From: a virus
Virus record (IMG/VR): IMGVR_UViG_3300028548_000482
Coordinates: 1-20,500 of that record
Reading direction: 5' to 3' (one strand)
DNA length: 20,500 bases
Shown: piece after piece, positions 2 through 18,674 of the stretch
How the letters are laid out: every line of letters starts with the position of its first letter
Numbering within the stretch: the first letter of the stretch is position 1
Translations under genes and position numbers: made by a program
Notes under the pieces: model-generated
Told to the model about the DNA's origin: nothing
What the model saw: only the letters and a program-made list of their open reading frames with translations
The model's database searches: none

Positions 2-1120
2 CCTACATTCATTAAGGAGATAACACCTAAGGTAAAGAAGGACGGCAGTTACTCAATAGTCGGCCTGAAGTTCTTAGGGGAACAGTGGACAACAGCAACA
101 GCACCATTCAGCAGACTGGATTATCCAGAGTTTAACTTAGGCTCACGTCAACAGATAGGACGTTACCTACAATATTTCGGATGGGTTCCAGAGACCTTTA
201 CAGAGAAAGGACAGCCAATCGTTGACGAAGGCGTTCTTAGAAAGGTAAAGGGTATACCGGAAGCGGAGCTGATAGGTGAGTACCTTATGGTACAGAAGCG
301 GATTGCACAGGTTCAGAGCTGGTTAGACGCTGTTAAGGATGATGGTAGAGTACATGGTTATGTTAATCCCAATGGCGCAGTAACCGGCAGGATGACACAC
401 TCTAGCCCAAACATGGGTCAGGTTCCGGCAGGGTATTCACCCTACGGCAAAGAGTGTCGAGAGGTATGGATAGTACCTAAAGGTTACAAGCTAGTAGGTA
501 TGGATGCAAGCGGCTTAGAGTTACGTATGCTTGCTCATTACATGAATGACGAGGGATACACTAATGAAATTCTCAATGGAGATATTCACACGGCAAACCA
601 GTTGGCTGCGGGCATTGCAACTAGAGACCAAGCAAAGACTTTTATCTACGCTTTCCTGTACGGAGCAGGAGATAGTAAAATCGGAAGTATCGTTGGAGGA
701 AGTGCAGGCGCTGGTAAGCGACTTAAAGAAAAGTTCCTTAACAATACGCCAGCTCTTAGAAAGCTACGAGAACGAGTTGCAATTGCTAGTCGAAGAGGTT
801 TCCTTCTTGGATTGGATGGAAGAAGGGTCGCTGTACGGTCAGAACACGCGGCGTTGAATACACTACTACAGAGCGCAGGGGCTATCGTTATGAAGAAAGC
901 ACTGGTTCTGTTAGATGAGTACGCAACTGCACATAAACTTGATTATAAATTTATAGGTAACATACACGATGAAATCCAGACGGAGGTCGCAGAGAAGGAC
1001 GCAGAAAGGTTTGGATGGCTCGCAACTGCTTGCATTGAAGCGGCAGGAAACTACTACAACCTCAACTGCCCGTTGGCAGGAGAGTACCAAGTCGGAGGAG
1101 ACTGGAGTGAAACCCACTAA
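2..1120 (+). CDS. Family A DNA polymerase, T7 gp5-like, C-terminal part (5' end outside window)
   Basis: Replicative DNA polymerase of the T7 gp5 type; it copies the phage genome. The reading frame is open from base 2, so 372 residues of the polymerase domain are present and the N-terminal exonuclease part lies off the left edge. Motifs in partial numbering: motif A GMDASGLELR with catalytic Asp168; motif B RDQAKTFIYAFLYGAG with Arg208, Lys212 and Tyr216; motif C HDE at 322-324. The segments VNPNGAVTGR and AALNTLLQSAG also match T7 gp5 closely as I remember it. Tyr216 is at the position of T7 Tyr526 / E. coli Pol I 762. The last 14 bases overlap the next gene, which points to coupled translation. 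The family is certain from the motifs; how much is missing upstream cannot be seen. Confidence 0.97.
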   Translation, partial: PTFIKEITPKVKKDGSYSIVGLKFLGEQWTTATAPFSRLDYPEFNLGSRQQIGRYLQYFGWVPETFTEKGQPIVDEGVLRKVKGIPEAELIGEYLMVQKRIAQVQSWLDAVKDDGRVHGYVNPNGAVTGRMTHSSPNMGQVPAGYSPYGKECREVWIVPKGYKLVGMDASGLELRMLAHYMNDEGYTNEILNGDIHTANQLAAGIATRDQAKTFIYAFLYGAGDSKIGSIVGGSAGAGKRLKEKFLNNTPALRKLRERVAIASRRGFLLGLDGRRVAVRSEHAALNTLLQSAGAIVMKKALVLLDEYATAHKLDYKFIGNIHDEIQTEVAEKDAERFGWLATACIEAAGNYYNLNCPLAGEYQVGGDWSETH

Positions 1121-10577: not shown

Positions 10578-11408
10578 TTAAAAGAGACCTAAGAAAGAAT
10601 CTACGAGACCAGGAGCGCGTTCGCCAGTAATGGGGTTTACGTACCCAGTAGCGGCGGTAAGCATACCTTCTGTTTGAATCTGACGTAACTCATTGGCTTG
10701 CTTCTGTCCTTCCATGAAGCTCTCTAAGCCACCTGACGCACCTTGACCATACAAAGAACCTTGCTGTCGACGAGCTGCATCAGCATAGGAAGCAGGAACA
10801 TTACCCGCACCGAATAAGTTAATAGCTTGCTGTTGTGGGTTATAACCCGCCCCTTGTAAGCCCTGCGCTCTTTGTAACATTTGAGCTTGTTCTTGCCCAA
10901 ACTGACCTCGTGCCGCTAACTGAGAATTAAGCATAGCTTCTTGACGTGCTTTTTCAAAGCCAAATGTCTCAACGTTACCACCACCAAACATACCTTGTTG
11001 TACACCACCACGACCACTAGAGAACAAACCCTGTTGCATTGCCATGCGCTGACGTTCTTCTTCAGGTCGCTGTGCGGCTCTCATCTGCTCATAGATAGCC
11101 TGTGAACCCGCAGCTACGTTATTACTAAGACCACCAAACATGTCCTGTGCTTGACCTAAGTACTGCTGCTGACGTGCTAGTTCCGCATCAGATAGGTTGA
11201 GGTTTAAGCCCCCATCAGCATTAGTTGTTCCTGTAGCTAATCCGCTAGTGACAGTGTAGGGTCTAAACTCAGCCATTCCTGCGGCTTCGGTGCCTATCTC
11301 TCTGCCAGTTGCTAATCCTAGCTCGCCTGCTTCAACTGCGTCCTCAATGCCTTCCTTACCCGCATAGTAAGCTGCACCACCTCCAAGTAAACCACCTAAA
11401 ACAGACAT
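10578..11408 (-). CDS. Gly/Gln-rich virion protein, probable internal core or tail component
   Basis: A 276-residue protein. The ATG at 11408 is preferred because GGAGGG lies about eight bases ahead and the previous gene stops two bases before it; a TTG at 11423 would add five residues and is less likely. The N-terminus is a short Gly/Ala-rich segment (GGLLGGGAAYYAGKEG) followed by an acidic helix. Then comes FRPYTVTSG, a motif I have met in structural proteins of many marine podoviruses. The rest is rich in Gln, Gly, Ala and Met, with several QQ pairs, and probably forms long helices. It lies between the tail fibre and the ejection genes, the place of T7 gp14-like small core proteins. No enzymatic motif is visible. 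Confidence 0.8.
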   Translation of the reverse strand: MSVLGGLLGGGAAYYAGKEGIEDAVEAGELGLATGREIGTEAAGMAEFRPYTVTSGLATGTTNADGGLNLNLSDAELARQQQYLGQAQDMFGGLSNNVAAGSQAIYEQMRAAQRPEEERQRMAMQQGLFSSGRGGVQQGMFGGGNVETFGFEKARQEAMLNSQLAARGQFGQEQAQMLQRAQGLQGAGYNPQQQAINLFGAGNVPASYADAARRQQGSLYGQGASGGLESFMEGQKQANELRQIQTEGMLTAATGYVNPITGERAPGLVDSFLGLF

Positions 11409-11409
11409 A

Positions 11410-13083
11410 TTACAACCCTCCAATAATAAATGCTAGTAACTCAGTGTAACGTACACCAAGTCTTGTTTGTTCTACACCACTTTCATCTTCCCAAGTATTG
11501 CTAACAAACAAACCGTAGTCGCCTGCGTCAAGACCTTCGGCTGTAAAGGCTGCCTGTACGTCCTGAGCGATAACACCAAAGTGATACCGAGCTTCACTGC
11601 CTTTCTTCTCTACTGCTGAGTTCCACTTGAACTTCCGTACCAAGCCTTTACAAGCCTGAGATACACGAGTTTCTGCTTCAGTTAGTTCCTCAATGCTTTG
11701 TTTCACATTGCGGTCAGAAGAAGTAGTAACAGCGTTTACTGAGAAGATGTCATCCCACTGTGCATTAGCTCGGCCTAAATCAACATTACCATTATTTTCA
11801 CTGTTATCGCTCATTTTATAAGGAGCAATGGCGACTACACCTGAACCGTTGAAGTATCTTAAAGATACGTTTCCGTTACCTATTGTTATGTCCTGTGGCC
11901 CACTCGATTGACTAACTCTTATAGCACCACATACAGTACCATCTTTTTTAAACTCAACAGCTACGCCATTAGCATCTTTATCTACAACTAGTGTGTCTGT
12001 AGTAGAAACACCAGTAACTGTGGAAGAGCCTAGAGTAGCTAAACCTGTAACTCCTAAAGTGTCTGTATCGACATCTCCTGTAACTTCAACACCTGTGTTT
12101 GTTGTCTCAAATTTCTTACCATTGTTAAAGTATAAATCAACTGAACCACCATTGGTAAACGCAGCATAAGCTTCGTCAATGTCTTGGTTCCCTATTAATA
12201 AAGAGTTAGCATTAAAAGCCATAGTTCGGTTGTTTTTGGATTGGAAGGTATTCACGTTATTACTTGATACGTGTGATATTTCCATGTCAACACCAGAACC
12301 AAACGACTGTTTAACATTGTCGTTGTTGCGCATGTTTTGCTTATTAACAGTAAGCACTTCACTGATGTTAAACTTTTCAGTAGCGTCAACTCGAAGACTT
12401 ATGTTTGAATCAGCAGCAGCACCGGCAGTGTCTGTGTTAATTGTTAAAGTGCCTGCATCTACTTTCAGTTGAGCTGTAGTTGTAGCGTCAATAAACTCTA
12501 CGCCTGCGCCTACATCTCCTGATTCAAACCTACCAACAACGTCCGTTGCCGCACTGAAAACGTGTAAAGGTTTAGCAGGAGAATCAATACCAACACCTAT
12601 TTTAGAAGATGCAACAAACTGACCAGTAACTTTAGCACCGTTAGTAAGAGTCTCTACTTTCTTACCGTTATCGAAGTAAAGCTCTACAGCGTCATTTTCC
12701 GTAGCCTTTATCATTGTCTCGCTGTCAGCAGGGTTTTTAACTACAAAAACACTAGAGAGAACACGTAAGTTTCCTGTACCGGCTTCCTCAATATAGCTAT
12801 TAGAACCATTGTGATAAAGTTTTAAATCTTGGCCTGTTCCTATCCGAATCTTTTTGTTATCAATTAAGTCTAACTGTGTAACCGTTGTAGTTCCTGCGAC
12901 GACTGTCGGCAAAGTAACCGTACCTGTAAACGTAGGGGAAGCCTCGTCAGCTTTTGTTTGACTCATGGTTGCAATGTTATTAAACTCTGCTGAAAACTCA
13001 GAGCCTTTAATAATCTTAGCAGCGTTACCCGAAGGGAGTGAATCCTTTGCTGCAAAATCAGTATCTGGAGAATAGTCGCTCAT
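11410..13083 (-). CDS. Tail fibre protein with C-terminal S74 intramolecular chaperone domain
   Basis: A 557-residue receptor-binding fibre candidate. The N-terminal part (about 1-45), with DFAAKDSLPSGNAAKIIKGS, is typical of fibres of marine podoviruses and probably attaches to the tail. The middle is beta-rich and repetitive: VELYFDNGKKVET at about 133-145 and VDLYFNNGKKFET at about 315-327 are two copies of one module, and KLYHNGSNSYIEEAGTGNL is a further strand motif. From about 455 the S74 auto-processing domain begins: SSDRNVKQSI with the predicted Ser456 and Lys461, then HFGVIAQDVQAAF. This domain helps the trimer fold and then cleaves itself off. It ends right after RYTELLAFIIGGL, so the long terminal helix seen in many S74 proteins is nearly absent. 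The start overlaps the previous stop by one base. Confidence 0.92.
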   Translation of the reverse strand: MSDYSPDTDFAAKDSLPSGNAAKIIKGSEFSAEFNNIATMSQTKADEASPTFTGTVTLPTVVAGTTTVTQLDLIDNKKIRIGTGQDLKLYHNGSNSYIEEAGTGNLRVLSSVFVVKNPADSETMIKATENDAVELYFDNGKKVETLTNGAKVTGQFVASSKIGVGIDSPAKPLHVFSAATDVVGRFESGDVGAGVEFIDATTTAQLKVDAGTLTINTDTAGAAADSNISLRVDATEKFNISEVLTVNKQNMRNNDNVKQSFGSGVDMEISHVSSNNVNTFQSKNNRTMAFNANSLLIGNQDIDEAYAAFTNGGSVDLYFNNGKKFETTNTGVEVTGDVDTDTLGVTGLATLGSSTVTGVSTTDTLVVDKDANGVAVEFKKDGTVCGAIRVSQSSGPQDITIGNGNVSLRYFNGSGVVAIAPYKMSDNSENNGNVDLGRANAQWDDIFSVNAVTTSSDRNVKQSIEELTEAETRVSQACKGLVRKFKWNSAVEKKGSEARYHFGVIAQDVQAAFTAEGLDAGDYGLFVSNTWEDESGVEQTRLGVRYTELLAFIIGGL

Positions 13084-14630
13084 TATAGTAGTCGTCCTGT
13101 TTTAGCTAGTATGTCAATCTTTTGTATTGAGAAAGCACTGTTATTTATTGTGGAGGTAACACCGATAGTTACTACGTTACCTGAGCCTGTTGTGTTTACC
13201 TTGGGAGTGTTTACAGTTTTACCACCAGAGTACTCTGCTGTTGTGTTAAACTCTGCTACGTTGAATTGTGCTATGTTTCCCGCGAGAAAACCAAAAGACT
13301 GTTTGGAAAAGTTTTGAGTGTAGTCATAACCCCAGTTAAGAACAGCAGTAGTTGCGGCTCCTCCAATAATTGTTAAGTTAAACTTCTTTAAAAACTTAAC
13401 AATAGAAGTATCGCCAAAGTCTAAAGGTTGACTAAAGTAACTCATAGCGTAAGTAGCTGTACCGTCAAGAAAACCTCCGTACTTAACAAGACCTGTAGAC
13501 ATACCCATGAAAAACCCATCATTTGCTATGTCCGAAAAAGACAAAGGTATGATGCCTGACCAAGTCGTAGCTCTAAATGACCCATCTTCCAAAGGTGTTC
13601 TAACGTCGAAACAGTAAACAGTATTACTAGAAGGAAGAGTCAAAAGATAAAAAGCATTATCAGGGCTGTAAATACTTTTAATAGGAGCGCTTTCAAAACC
13701 AACCAGCTCTAACAAATCACTACGTACATTCTTACTCACATCACGTAGAGGTAACGACTTCTCCTGTATAAGCCTTCCTAAGCTCATTAGGCCGCGATTA
13801 GATAGGAACAGTATGTCACTACCAGTAGCCTGTACAGAGTCTCTCTCAATGCATCCTACGCCCTCTATGGTGTCCTTTAGGAATATAGTAGAGCCTGCTG
13901 TGGATGGGCCGCTTGTAGAACCTGAACCCGCAGCACCTTGCGCGCCATCGTAAATCAACATGGAGTGTCTTCCAAAGATGATAAACAGGCCGTTATGTTC
14001 TGTTAAGGCAACAATCTCGTCATAACCTTGAGGCCAGAACTGAGTAATGTTTATAGTAAAGCTAGTACCTCCTGACCATGTAGTGCCGTCCAATAGAGCA
14101 GAGACTGAAACAGTGTGTTTGTCTCCCGCCACATCAGCCACCCAAAGACGGCCAAAGGCTGCCAAGACTTCATTACCCGCAGGTGCGCCGCTGATTGCAA
14201 CAAGAGTAGAACTTCCTACTGCCGACCTGAGAGGTGCGTGTCCTGCTTGAAAGAAGTACACGTCGTTGTTAAAGGACGTTATCTTCCAGTTGTTTGCTGT
14301 TATGTTATAACCGTTGGGAAGAGTACAAGCAGCTAGTGTAGTCGTTCCTGTAAATATTTTATTATTACCTGTTGAGAAGACTACAACGCCACCATCAAAC
14401 TTAGTAAACTCAAAAACACCTTCAAGGCCGCGACTACTCCCTAGCACTGCCGCACCGTTGGTAGAAACAGGTTGAAAACCTTCACGAGCGCCAACGCGCC
14501 CACGGTTGTCAATTACAGAATTATCAGCAATGGAAGCAAAGTTAGGGGACATCCCTACGGGAGACTCCTCGGTATTAATACCAAAGAAGGCAGGAGCCGC
14601 TACTGTTAAATTACGTAATTGTTGGCTCAT
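13083..14630 (-). CDS. Tail nozzle / tail tubular protein B-like
   Basis: A 515-residue, beta-rich protein with many Gly, Asn and Thr residues and few charged helices. Its opening, AFFGINTEESPVGMSPNFAS, then ADNSVIDNRGRVGAREGF, is the start I recall for tail nozzle or stabilisation proteins of many podoviruses (T7 gp12 or P22 gp10 position): the gene product is linked to an approach of x-x-x-D/E-x-x-x-P followed by a conserved N-x-V-x-x-x-G-R-x-G-x-R-x-G-F. GVVVFSTGNNKIFTG and similar repeats suggest a propeller-like fold. It would form the lower tube of the short tail under the adaptor ring. It is shorter than T7 gp12 (794). The ATG overlaps the upstream stop by four bases, directly after the adaptor-like gene as in T7. 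Confidence 0.78.
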   Translation of the reverse strand: MSQQLRNLTVAAPAFFGINTEESPVGMSPNFASIADNSVIDNRGRVGAREGFQPVSTNGAAVLGSSRGLEGVFEFTKFDGGVVVFSTGNNKIFTGTTTLAACTLPNGYNITANNWKITSFNNDVYFFQAGHAPLRSAVGSSTLVAISGAPAGNEVLAAFGRLWVADVAGDKHTVSVSALLDGTTWSGGTSFTINITQFWPQGYDEIVALTEHNGLFIIFGRHSMLIYDGAQGAAGSGSTSGPSTAGSTIFLKDTIEGVGCIERDSVQATGSDILFLSNRGLMSLGRLIQEKSLPLRDVSKNVRSDLLELVGFESAPIKSIYSPDNAFYLLTLPSSNTVYCFDVRTPLEDGSFRATTWSGIIPLSFSDIANDGFFMGMSTGLVKYGGFLDGTATYAMSYFSQPLDFGDTSIVKFLKKFNLTIIGGAATTAVLNWGYDYTQNFSKQSFGFLAGNIAQFNVAEFNTTAEYSGGKTVNTPKVNTTGSGNVVTIGVTSTINNSAFSIQKIDILAKTGRLL

Positions 14631-15277
14631 ATACTATACCACACTGTCTCCGTAGGGAAACGTCCTGCATCCATAGCAATAGCATCAGACATAGTAGACT
14701 TAGCCATGCTGTACAAGGTTGCACTTGAAGTTCCGCCAGTCTCCCCACGTTCTTCAGCAGCCATGGCGTGAGCAAACTGAACGATAGGTAAAAAAGGAAT
14801 TTCAATTACTTCCGAACCTGTAGTAAAGTCATCACTTCTGTCAACAGTTAAAAAGGTAAGGTCGTATACTTTGTCAGGGATAGGATACACTTGGAAATTC
14901 ATGCCCCCTGCACTTTCATTATAACCAGTAAAGACATAATTATCTGGAACACTTTGAGCAGCAGGGTTTATAAACTTGTCTTCCTGTAACTCACGTTGAG
15001 TACCCATGTTTACAAAACACTTTTCAGTGTTGTTAGTTACTTCTAAAGTTGTGAACATTTGAGAACTGCCAACTAAAGTGTAAGCACGTTGGCCTACTAC
15101 AGTGGGTATAGTTGTTTCTTTACGCAGGTCTGACCAGTTCCAAGTGTCCTCTACTAATCGTTTAGCATCGTTTACAAACTCACCTATCAGTTTAGAGTAC
15201 GCGCTGGTGTTGGGAGACGCTACTTCATCCTCCCGCAACCTACGAAGTACTTTATTAATTGCTTCTAAATATGTCAT
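14627..15277 (-). CDS. Tail adaptor / tail tubular protein A-like
   Basis: A 216-residue protein that begins MTYLEAINKVLRRLREDEV, followed by KLIGEFVNDAKRLVEDTWNW and an ETTIPTVVGQRAYTL strand. An N-terminal helix pair, a W-x-W/W-S-D segment, a beta domain and a C-terminal helix rich in Ala and Glu (VQFAHAMAAEERGE) match the layout of gp11-type tail adaptors, in which the ring joins the portal to the nozzle. Direct similarity to T7 gp11 is too low for me to claim from reading alone; its position immediately before the nozzle-like gene is the second argument. Its ATG shares one base with the stop of the 1004-residue gene. It may be annotated elsewhere as hypothetical structural protein. Confidence 0.68.
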   Translation of the reverse strand: MTYLEAINKVLRRLREDEVASPNTSAYSKLIGEFVNDAKRLVEDTWNWSDLRKETTIPTVVGQRAYTLVGSSQMFTTLEVTNNTEKCFVNMGTQRELQEDKFINPAAQSVPDNYVFTGYNESAGGMNFQVYPIPDKVYDLTFLTVDRSDDFTTGSEVIEIPFLPIVQFAHAMAAEERGETGGTSSATLYSMAKSTMSDAIAMDAGRFPTETVWYSI

Positions 15278-18200
15278 TATACATTCCTATCAAAAGTGCT
15301 TGCAAAGGGGTCGTCATCAAAATCATATAATTCTTCTTCGGGTTTTTCTTTAGGCATATCCTGAGTAAGAAGCTCTACTAAGCTAAAGTCTCTATCTTTA
15401 AACTTAAACAGCTCACGACCAAAGAGGGCGCTCGTAGTTCTAGTACCTTGATTCATGCCAAAGTCTAAGTCAAAACTAGGTAAGTCTATACTAGGTACGT
15501 CTATACTAGGTACGTCTATACTAGGTAAGTCTACACTAGGTACGTCTACACTAGGTACGTCTATGTCTTCGACAAACTCTTTAACAGGCTCGATAACAGC
15601 GTCATCTATAGCAGAACCTGCGTCTCTCACCACGTCCTCTATCATTGAACCAGTATCTTCTACTACTTCTTTAACAGGTTCAATAAGAGCATCATCTATA
15701 GCAGAACCAGTGTCTGTTACCACGTCTTCTATCATTGAACCAGTGTCTTTTACTACTTCCAAAGCAGGGTCTACAACTGTGTCTCCAACTTTATCAATAA
15801 CAGCATCTGCTCCATCAACAATAGGTTCTATAGCATCAGCAACATTATCCTTCTGGTCATCAATGAAACTTCCTACATTTCTAATAGTGTCTTCTAGCCA
15901 AGCGACATCAAAGTCAACAGGGAAGTCAAAATCAAAAGTAAAGCCTTCGTTAAGATTAAGTTCTAAGTCTCCAAAACTACCGCCTTCCTCTATGTACTTA
16001 ACAAAACCATCTTCCATTGCTTGTTGAATAGAGCCAGTACTATAATAAGTAGTAGTAGCTTTCTTTAGACCTACTAAGAAATCAGGGTCGCTTGATACTG
16101 TTTCAGGGATACCTAAGTCTGTTAATGATGAAGTCAGCCACTCATCTGTAACTACTACACTAGCGAAGGCCATGAGGTCTTGGTCAATAATTGCATTAAC
16201 AGCACCAATAGTTTCAGCAGGAGTAAGATGACCAATGCCTGTGTCTTCCGTTATGGCACCAGTAGACTTTAAAAGCACAGGAGCAATGGCTTTCCAATCT
16301 TCGCTGTTGCCCTCTCCTTTTAAAATATTCAGAGCAGCAGGAGTACCAGAGTAAAGACCGCCAGTTAGCCAGTTTAAACCTACAGTTTTAATAGCACCCT
16401 TTAATTCATCTTCTAAACCACCTTCGTACCATTCTTCTTTTTCAGGTATTTCTTGACCTTCCACTGTAGAACTAAAACGAACATTACCTGCATCTAAACG
16501 AGCTATCTGTTCACGCCTTTCATTCCACTCGTCAGAACCTTGAGCAAAGCTAGTAGGGCTATCCGTACCATAGTCGGCTTCTAAGTCTAAGCCGTTGTGT
16601 CTGGCGTAGTTAATCTCTGTTTGAGTGTATTCTTTATCTTCTAACTCAGGGAACTCAAGTACACGATAGTCTTCGTATATGTTATTACCTGTTCTATACG
16701 TGCCGTCTTCTAGTTGACTTATAACCGCACCGTCTTTAACAAGGTTTGAAACAACGGAGCGTTTGTAGCTCTCTTCGTCAATACTTCCGTCAGCTAATAA
16801 CTTACTTAAATAAGCGTTTCGAGTATCAATGTCTAACGCATAATAAGCTTCGTTAAAAGTTTCTGTGTCGCCTCCAATTAAAGCGTCTAAGCCACTAAAG
16901 GTCTGTGTATATTGTTCTTCCTTTTTAGTGTCGTACAGGTCATACACCTTATAACCTAAGTCAGCATCCTCATTATAAAAACTATCTACTGCGTTTTCAA
17001 ACACACCAAACGCGCCTTCCTTAGACCTGACCCCTTGTAAATCAAAAGGCTCCTCTTCAAAGGAATCTGAAAAGATAGAAATTTCTTCTTCGGTATAACC
17101 CGCATCCGTTAGTAATTCTTCGTATTCTCCTAACACGGCTGAATTTGTGCTTTCTCCTTCTTGGCTTCTACGTAAGCCATCATAATACCGTTCTAAGTCT
17201 TGTGTAGTATAGTCACCGTTAAGGTATGCTTCCTTTAAAAGACTTACATTTTTGTCGAAACCTATATTATTTATAGCGCCAAAAGCGTCAGCACCTTGAG
17301 TACCAAAGTTATATATATCTTTTGCAGCTTCTTGACGTGCTTCCCAGTTAGCTTGTTTCTCTTCTTCCGTAGCGTTAGCCCACTGTTCGTCCGTAAGTTG
17401 TAAATCATTAATACCGGCATTGAGCCAAGCATTACTAGCGTCAACACGACGATAAGCGTAAGGGTCGCCTTGGATACTTTCTATTTGATTAGTTTGATAA
17501 TTAAAGAAAGAACCTGCGGGTATGTCTAAATCTTCAGGGTTTAAAGGGTCTGTACCATAATGTATATACCCCGCATCCCCAGGGTTTGGCATATTCTGCC
17601 CACCAAGTGTTACAGTGCCGCCACCAGTTGTGACAATTGTGTCGCCTACTTCAGCGCCTTGACTGGCTAGACTATAACTACCATTTAATTGGGAGTAACC
17701 TTGATTTAATAGATTGTCGCTGTTAAATGTGCCAGAAGCTATTGTTGTAGGAGCGCCCCCATCTACTCCTTGCATACCTACTGACCATTGAGGAGGGTCA
17801 CCGTTTTCCCAGTTCAAAGGGTTCCAAGGGCTGTCTAGCCAAGAACCTAACCAATCTCCTGCGGCTGACATTAATGTGCCATCGTAGACTGCACTACCTA
17901 TCTGCCATATAGGAGTTTTTTGAATAAAATTAGACGCGGCCTCTGGTACACCTGCTATAAAGTCGTTAATACCTTGTCGTATTTCTTGGAAAGTAGGAAC
18001 GCCTCTACGTCCTTCGTCAAAGGTATTAAAGGGGTCTACACCACCCATGTCGTATTCGTCAACATTGAGCCAAGGAGTAAAGTTTCCAGTGCCTTGCCCT
18101 ACCGCTCCTGCCCCTGACTGGTTCTGAGTAGGGTTGGGGTTGCTTTGTTGATTGTTGCCACCCTGATTAGTAGGTAAACCTGTCTCAGCAAAAGGGTTAT

Positions 18201-18291
18201 AACTGTTGTCATATACTGAGAAGTTATTATTACCACCTTGACCGGTACCTGTGGTATAAGTACCGCCGTTGTTAGTCACACCTCTGGACAT
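15277..18291 (-). CDS. 1004-residue low-complexity virion protein with tandem repeats, function unknown
   Basis: The largest gene of the window. I do not recognise a family. Residues 1-72 are rich in Asn, Gln, Gly and Thr. Residues about 300-640 are strongly acidic and helical, with many short Glu/Asp/Tyr runs. Residues about 842-906 contain a 30-residue unit repeated twice plus a partial third, with DTGSMIEDVV and GSAIDDALIEPVKE in each unit; it looks amphipathic. Residues about 909-939 are a pentapeptide array of the form (V/I)-D-(V/L)-P-S. The end is mixed, with DPFASTFDRNV echoing DPFNTF near residue 86. No catalytic motif or membrane segment is apparent. It lies between the 3TM holin and the tail adaptor-like gene, and shares one base with each. 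A structural or ejected role is likely from place only. Confidence 0.85.
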   Translation of the reverse strand: MSRGVTNNGGTYTTGTGQGGNNNFSVYDNSYNPFAETGLPTNQGGNNQQSNPNPTQNQSGAGAVGQGTGNFTPWLNVDEYDMGGVDPFNTFDEGRRGVPTFQEIRQGINDFIAGVPEAASNFIQKTPIWQIGSAVYDGTLMSAAGDWLGSWLDSPWNPLNWENGDPPQWSVGMQGVDGGAPTTIASGTFNSDNLLNQGYSQLNGSYSLASQGAEVGDTIVTTGGGTVTLGGQNMPNPGDAGYIHYGTDPLNPEDLDIPAGSFFNYQTNQIESIQGDPYAYRRVDASNAWLNAGINDLQLTDEQWANATEEEKQANWEARQEAAKDIYNFGTQGADAFGAINNIGFDKNVSLLKEAYLNGDYTTQDLERYYDGLRRSQEGESTNSAVLGEYEELLTDAGYTEEEISIFSDSFEEEPFDLQGVRSKEGAFGVFENAVDSFYNEDADLGYKVYDLYDTKKEEQYTQTFSGLDALIGGDTETFNEAYYALDIDTRNAYLSKLLADGSIDEESYKRSVVSNLVKDGAVISQLEDGTYRTGNNIYEDYRVLEFPELEDKEYTQTEINYARHNGLDLEADYGTDSPTSFAQGSDEWNERREQIARLDAGNVRFSSTVEGQEIPEKEEWYEGGLEDELKGAIKTVGLNWLTGGLYSGTPAALNILKGEGNSEDWKAIAPVLLKSTGAITEDTGIGHLTPAETIGAVNAIIDQDLMAFASVVVTDEWLTSSLTDLGIPETVSSDPDFLVGLKKATTTYYSTGSIQQAMEDGFVKYIEEGGSFGDLELNLNEGFTFDFDFPVDFDVAWLEDTIRNVGSFIDDQKDNVADAIEPIVDGADAVIDKVGDTVVDPALEVVKDTGSMIEDVVTDTGSAIDDALIEPVKEVVEDTGSMIEDVVRDAGSAIDDAVIEPVKEFVEDIDVPSVDVPSVDLPSIDVPSIDVPSIDLPSFDLDFGMNQGTRTTSALFGRELFKFKDRDFSLVELLTQDMPKEKPEEELYDFDDDPFASTFDRNV
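15476..15565. repeat. 15-bp tandem repeat array (six units)
   Basis: Six adjacent 15-base units of the form CTAGGTA(A/C)GTCTA(T/C)(A/G), starting at 15476, 15491, 15506, 15521, 15536 and 15551. They differ at only two or three positions. Read on the - strand they encode the pentapeptide array (V/I)D(V/L)PS in the C-terminal region of the 1004-residue protein. The length, a multiple of three, keeps the frame, so copy number could vary without breaking the gene. Confidence 0.95.
15571..15765. repeat. 90-bp imperfect repeat (two units plus partial third)
   Basis: Matching segments recur exactly 90 bases apart: CTTTAACAGG at 15579 and 15669, CATCTATAGCAGAACC at 15603 and 15693, and TCTATCATTGAACCAGT near 15639 and 15729. 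Each unit encodes 30 residues of the large protein (EPVKE, EDTGSMIEDVV, GSAIDDA). The two copies differ by scattered silent and replacement changes, so this duplication is older than the neighbouring 15-base array. Confidence 0.9.
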
Positions 18292-18674
18292 TACTTAACT
18301 CCCTTTGTCTTTTCGTATGTACGTAAACCACCTAAACCAAGCATACCCATAAGAACAGGTATCATAGTAGATAAGTCTACAAGGGGTATAGTGATTGGAG
18401 AACTGGATAAAGCAAGCGCAAAGTTTGCCATCGGTATAACCAAGAAGTTACCGGCCATGCCCAAACAACACGTCCAACCAACAGCCGGTCTCCAACCTGC
18501 GACAAAGAAGCTATCATGCTTTGCTTCAACCTTGTTTACCTCTATCTGTGCCTGTGCTATCGTGTGTGCTTGTGTTGCAATCTCGTGCGCTATACGTTGC
18601 CTAGTATCAGCGTCAGGGATTACCTTGTCTAGTATAGTTGTTACAGGCGCTATAAGCGCACGAATGATTGACAT
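18291..18674 (-). CDS. 3TM-type phage holin (GTA holin family)
   Basis: A 127-residue membrane protein. Residues 20-55 form a charged amphipathic helix (DADTRQRIAHEIATQAH). The signature AGWRPAVGWTC at 59-69 is the hallmark I associate with the 3TM holin family found in marine phages and gene transfer agents. Hydrophobic segments lie at about 63-90 and 103-118, and the end is basic (RTYEKTKGVK). In the family these proteins make lesions in the inner membrane so that the endolysin can reach the wall. Its ATG overlaps the stop of the small holin by one base, so the two are probably translated together. No endolysin gene is next to it. Confidence 0.85.
   Translation of the reverse strand: MSIIRALIAPVTTILDKVIPDADTRQRIAHEIATQAHTIAQAQIEVNKVEAKHDSFFVAGWRPAVGWTCCLGMAGNFLVIPMANFALALSSSPITIPLVDLSTMIPVLMGMLGLGGLRTYEKTKGVK

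Follow-up and report, generated by a model that had tools for sequence, protein, structure and literature searches.

The window analysed here, the whole of a 20,500-nucleotide stretch of viral DNA (positions 1 to 20,500 of IMG/VR record IMGVR_UViG_3300028548_000482), encodes a 1004-residue protein, here termed X, whose gene family is without a name in the libraries searched and for which no description was found in the open-access literature searched. X and its syntenic counterparts share a layout of a variable N-terminus (N), a conserved central domain (D), an acidic spacer (S) and a conserved C-terminal motif (C). We give roughly even chances to the reading that X, from a marine podovirus lineage of SU10/P22-like type, is a hypervariable protein, probably associated with the virion, in which S forms a tether of variable length, on account of the position of its gene in a fixed slot, the confinement of repeats to S, the in-frame steps in unit number, the acidity of S and the differing kinds of repeat. 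The first-pass annotation of this DNA, which considered the repeats in this gene only, was too narrow in scope, in that they represent one instance of a family-wide slot where the kind of repeat is exchanged and not only expanded.

The slot was located with the nozzle-like gene as anchor, and the order holin, X, adaptor, nozzle was found to be fixed in 138 loci, with 632-665 nt between the end of X and the start of the nozzle gene in at least 130 of them. A total of 160 loci were examined for an X open reading frame (ORF); by our rule 22 were without one, 21 of these having too little upstream DNA, whilst L114 carried approximately 2.5 kb upstream and still had none. The complete X proteins (n=89) ranged from 363 to 1241 amino acids, with a median of 683. 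A hidden Markov model (HMM) of the central domain matched 106 of the 138 X genes, that of the window included, and a model of the C-terminal motif, run permissively (expectation value (E) of 10 or less, in the last 150 aa of the protein), matched 135. In the 105 genes where both D and C were located, S spanned 162-805 aa (median 233), and its net charge was negative in every case, with a median of -0.137 per residue versus -0.054 for N and D together. The alignment of the central domain was considered to diverge too far for use in a DNA-pattern scan. A scan of genome contigs returned a single contig from an archaeal metagenome-assembled genome, likely mis-binned, the slot ORF of which had no clear C motif and was left out of the counts. 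Short PF-containing motifs (PFASTF, PFESSF) were also observed at both ends of X (window residues 33-38, 87-91 and 995-1000), as well as in other members.

Amongst the same 105 genes, repeat arrays made up 6412/30711 residues of S (20.9%), compared with 484/20743 of N (2.3%), 200/16815 of D (1.2%) and 9/5968 of C (0.2%). When Tandem Repeats Finder (TRF) was applied at a score of 50 to whole loci from an earlier set, arrays made up 14,187 of 131,937 bases of X (10.8%) versus 2,998 of the 479,353 other bases of the same loci (0.63%), a density per base some 17 times lower outside X; in relative terms, the suggestion that repeats of this sort are unusual for these genomes hence holds. Every period in this set was a multiple of three, both within and outside X. 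At a TRF score of 40, arrays were present in 54 of 70 X genes of the first set versus 9 of 70 adaptor-plus-nozzle stretches, and the periods of all 285 X arrays were multiples of three save for a single one, of 11. In the full set, 114 of the 138 X genes carried arrays.

The two arrays with the top TRF scores of the whole window both lie in frame within the ORF of X: one at 15475-15564 with a period of 15 (6.0 copies, 93% matches, score 152), and one at 15578-15759 with a period of 90 (2.0 copies, 88%, score 287). The best score amongst 300 codon shuffles of the gene was 68. The 15-nt units encode, in order, IDVPS, VDVPS, VDLPS, IDVPS, IDVPS and IDLPS, and their 15 pairwise comparisons yielded no synonymous codon differences and 16 non-synonymous ones, each of them Ile/Val or Val/Leu. 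The two 90-nt copies differ at 14 bases, comprising eight synonymous and four non-synonymous codon differences. The counts of 0 versus 8 synonymous differences bear out the age order proposed at first pass, of a fresh 15-base array adjoining an older 90-base repeat. The older repeat had further been taken to encode amphipathic helices, in support of which residues 797-905 display a hydrophobic moment at a period of 3.67-3.75 that was reached by none of 2000 shuffles. Read by eye, the 30-residue unit resolves into a pair of helical hendecads, of 11 residues each, and 8 further residues; the two nested generations originally described are therefore both present, but are better regarded as three tiers. 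An antisense ORF (15455-16027, plus strand, 190 aa) lies across the repeats and was discarded, as it probably arises only because the repeat lacks stop codons in that frame.

Six loci in IMG/VR encode relatives of the 1004-aa protein, and comparison amongst them revealed the variation in unit number anticipated from slippage. L001, with 99.8% identity to the window across 6409 bases, likewise has six 15-nt units, whilst L007 and L008 (98.3% and 98.6% identical to the window) have five; this difference is a single clean in-frame 15-nt gap in 606 otherwise identical compared bases. A constant copy number in all relatives, named beforehand as the outcome that would speak against slippage, was hence not what was found. 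L007 and L008 come from the same dataset, yet are distinct contigs, each with its own differences, and since the window array is only 75-90 nt and should be spanned by an ordinary read, collapse during assembly is unlikely here. In the corresponding linker, the more distantly related L004 carries a 21-nt array of its own (INIDTPE), and no array was seen in L003. Elsewhere, L008 carries a 36-nt insertion near window position 11402, by the overlap of the tail-fibre gene and a gene of 281 aa, which together with the 15-nt array gap makes up the sole indels between L008 and the window.

Close pairs were defined by adaptor and nozzle genes at least 96% identical; of 106 such pairs 79 were usable, the other 27 being dropped for short homologous 3' stretches. 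The alignments contained 32 indels within arrays (14,757 columns) and 49 outside them (63,105 columns), and all 32 of those in arrays were multiples of three. Several correspond to whole units. For instance, L016 and L169 differ by 174 nt, or two 87-nt helix units, L052 and L054 by 11 aa, and further steps of 12, 81 (3 x 27), 33 and 30 nt were found between close relatives. L018, with adaptor and nozzle 99.9% identical to those of L169, is missing 58 residues in the protein alignment, equal to two 29-residue units, though these gaps are less cleanly placed in the DNA alignment. In other instances, X had been largely replaced beside a conserved holin: at an identity of 97% or more, the 450 nt that precede X could be read in 29 pairs and were covered at a mean of 1.00, whereas coverage of X was below 0.6 in 12 of these 29. 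The clearest difference in kind between close relatives is that of L035, with a DVPV and collagen-like spacer, versus L044 and L038, with hendecads and DLPS, where adaptor and nozzle are 98.9% and 98.7% identical and the holin is covered at 1.00 and X at 0.08. The region 1.5-3.5 kb past the nozzle, with coverage below 0.5 in 17 of 26 pairs, is at least as variable, and X is therefore one of two variable zones. Short 15-nt repeats were also seen to recur near the start of the post-nozzle gene (L003:7977-8031, L016:5380-5425 and L017:4459-4515).

The kind of repeat differs between loci, and includes hendecad helices, xDLPS, collagen-like GXY and PTPV. Coarse pattern rules, applied with near-identical loci counted separately, labelled 135 spacers as xDLP (20), GXY (19), hendecad (10), xDLP plus hendecad (8), GXY plus PT/PV (8), GXY plus xDLP (1) and, as the largest class, other (69). 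The Pfam Collagen family was matched by 7 of 46 X proteins, with a best E of 3.5e-32. The X of the window contains no GXY repeats and matched no Pfam families at E<=1, the pentapeptide-repeat family PF00805 included. EF-hand-like stretches were noted in some spacers (L067 and L069; for instance FNGDGVIDSSE in L067), and Pfam EF-hand_5 in 2 of the 46 proteins.

Table 1. Coordinates of gene X, its parts and its neighbours in the window.
Feature	Coordinates	Strand	Basis
Gene X, 1004 aa	15277..18291	-	ORF; syntenic X genes at 138 loci; lies between the genes for holin and adaptor; length-variable and hypervariable
15-nt array, 6 units, residues 910-939, (I/V)D(V/L)PS	15475..15564	-	TRF score 152
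90-nt repeat copy 2, residues 879-908	15568..15657	-	TRF period 90 and copy comparison
90-nt repeat copy 1, residues 849-878	15658..15747	-	TRF period 90 and copy comparison
Acidic spacer region S, about residues 717-950, containing both repeats	15442..16143	-	N-D-S-C division; hydrophobic moment
Central domain D (part, conserved), residues 624-716	16144..16422	-	Domain HMM match
C-terminal motif (RTTSALFGRELFKF...), best conserved end of X	15370..15441	-	Motif HMM
Holin, directly upstream, one base common to X	18291..18674	-	PF11351 5e-17, phrog_3427 2e-31
Tail adaptor, directly downstream	14627..15277	-	PF24175 SU10_adaptor 7e-12
Nozzle-like tail protein gene	13083..14630	-	phrog_5107 2e-21

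In the mechanism that we propose, S would be a tether linking D to C, its arrays would gain or lose whole units in frame via slippage or unequal recombination, and entire repeat types would be exchanged between phages. Selection would keep S long enough, acidic and in frame, with helical, extended or collagen-like chemistry being tolerated; the S of the window would comprise a hendecad helix block followed by the six pentapeptide units. The likely sense of this arrangement is that the fast-changing N-terminal part is held away from an anchor at C by a distance that can be adjusted, similar to the repeat shafts of tail fibres. Of the two roles offered at first pass, a spacer is thus the best reading, whilst a binding surface gained no support. 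A bolder and rather doubtful extension is that the family is an undescribed one with a standing 'repeat exchange slot', in which unrelated repeats swap and change in unit number between near-identical phages, tuning the reach of the tether rapidly and separately from the variable N-terminal part, as a phase-like variation in host attack.

Several points weigh against the tether. The presence of X in the virion is something that we only infer, as are the anchoring role of C and distance as the selected trait. AlphaFold2 gave a mean predicted local distance difference test (pLDDT) value of 43.9 for the full-length protein and 57.0 for the domain, and with both models weak the spacer and D are without structural support. 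In the full-length model pLDDT was below 50 over residues 827-1004, array included; structure prediction, suggested at first pass as a check, hence neither backs nor refutes the helices, for which the periodicity described above is the better evidence. D had no match by sequence in the PDB (best E 0.087), no consistent match in PHROG, and nothing in Foldseek at E<=0.001. The indel rates within and outside arrays (2.17/kb versus 0.78/kb) differ only about 2.8-fold, and the close pairs share loci and are hence not independent. The loci are metagenomic contigs, and short-read assembly may collapse arrays longer than a read. Most tail fibres, moreover, have a conserved N-terminal and a variable C-terminal end, the reverse of X.

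Neutral slippage, in which S is a tolerant, disordered region of phage DNA that accumulates repeats and its length and chemistry are functionless, would accommodate the free differences in repeat kind between loci, the restriction of differences amongst the 15-nt units to non-synonymous positions, and the location of nearly all arrays in S, with low pLDDT at that of the window. We nonetheless consider it unlikely, as S is in no case shorter than 162 aa, is acidic in all 105 genes and is embedded in loci otherwise poor in arrays. Between adjacent units, the ratio of non-synonymous to synonymous change (pN/pS), pooled after exclusion of array comparisons with differences at over 35% of sites, was 0.53 in 61 helix/other rows and 0.33 in 53 Gly-rich rows, which overlap, so that the result, although in line with the tether, is indicative only; values below one in both repeat classes still weigh against pure neutrality.

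It is improbable, in our estimation, that X serves internally as an ejection (pilot) protein or an effector, with C a packaging signal, N and D variable cargo for the host and S a linker that is flexible and unfolds easily, although the hypervariable N-terminal part beside a conserved C-terminal motif, the tape-measure-like PHROG matches on helix repeats and the occurrence of any Cys in only 7 of 138 X proteins would suit such a role. The large genes downstream of the nozzle are by position more obvious ejection proteins, no enzyme domain was recognised amongst 46 X proteins or 82 domain members, and collagen-like repeats need trimers, which would be hard to pass through a portal. Endolysin was also rejected as an identity for X: the PHROG 'endolysin' matches (L046, L016 and 2 of 82 domain members) were weak or on repeats, and no lysozyme domain was listed amongst the 46 proteins. 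Least probable of all is the reading of X as a true tail fibre, needle or whisker, trimeric and with a rigid shaft formed by the repeats. The Pfam Collagen matches, the matches to PHROG tail fibres in the Gly-rich portion of L067 and the adaptor and nozzle-like gene neighbours point that way; many S regions, however, consist of PT/PV or xDLP stretches, which are not known to form trimeric shafts, the protein of the window has no receptor-binding or S74 domain by Pfam, and the window encodes a separate S74 fibre.

If the tether reading is true, these loci hold a natural series of tethers, differing in length and chemistry at one place in an uncultivated marine phage lineage, from which one could learn directly if selection on a phage protein acts on reach or on sequence. 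Phage populations were moreover seen to differ by in-frame unit number beside nearly identical neighbour genes, and surveys of conserved genes would overlook this.

As to lineage, distant relatives of the nozzle-like gene are annotated as 'phage stabilization protein' or tail structure protein, and the models for the portals of SU10 and P22 both find a match in the portal of a 35-kb relative. The nearest relatives of the capsid in phage records are below 60% identity, and the DNA polymerase is nearest to pelagiphages HTVC103P, 104P and 115P at 58-63%. Mosaic ancestry was apparent (window 287-1120; L005 2019-2975), the polymerase being nearest to HMO-2011-type pelagiphages and the capsid to cyanophage-like records. 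In the 35-kb relative (L175, L176) a holin is present, and an endolysin was not recognised amongst nine proteins by Pfam or seven by PHROG. Neither the 1004-aa protein (tblastn, E<=1e-5) nor the L052 central domain (E<=0.01) had a match in 50,697 phage records. By annotation, no gene of the size of X separates the coat gene from the nozzle match in the HMO-2011-type phages CRP-3 and HTVC033P, where the genes reach 367 aa at most (HTVC033P), and the adaptor and nozzle of HTVC104P carry no annotation. In Anabaena phage A-4L, a gene annotated 'tail protein' lies directly behind the major head protein.

Amongst known systems, the portal of the relative and the adaptor of the window match models of SU10, whose tail type is treated in PMC9509320; no SU10 counterpart of X was identified in this analysis. 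Tape measure proteins have hendecad-like amphipathic repeats in common with X, and tape-measure-like PHROG matches fell on the repeats of L051, L046 and L016, and weakly on those of the window. The window match, however, is confined to residues 829-941 (E 6.9e-4), with none beyond the repeats, and the long-tailed virion of a tape measure is at odds with the SU10-like portal and adaptor and the nozzle-like gene, as judged from genes alone. GXY repeats, as in some X proteins, occur in SPP1 gp12, which is a 64-aa capsid accessory protein (PMC6316719); they are found in some X only, and not in that of the window. The streptococcal Scl1 and Scl2 resemble X in combining a variable domain with a variable number of GXY repeats, but are bacterial surface proteins anchored to the cell wall and of a single repeat chemistry (PMC8968730). 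The tail fibres of marine T7-like phages (pelagiphages) offer a repeat shaft and under-recruiting islands in marine viromes, as described in PMC3909814, and X follows their plan of a variable end, an unrelated repeat shaft and a conserved end. The polarity is reversed, these fibres having a conserved N-terminus and a variable C-terminus, which counts further against the tether; in addition, the T7-like fibre anchor PF03906 was found neither in the X of the window (Pfam, E<=1) nor amongst the families of the 46 members, and X, unlike the marine T7-like tail fibre, lies between holin and adaptor. Nevertheless, the repeat shaft of these fibres (PMC3909814) is the nearest precedent in the literature searched, and X would be a mirror-image variant of it.
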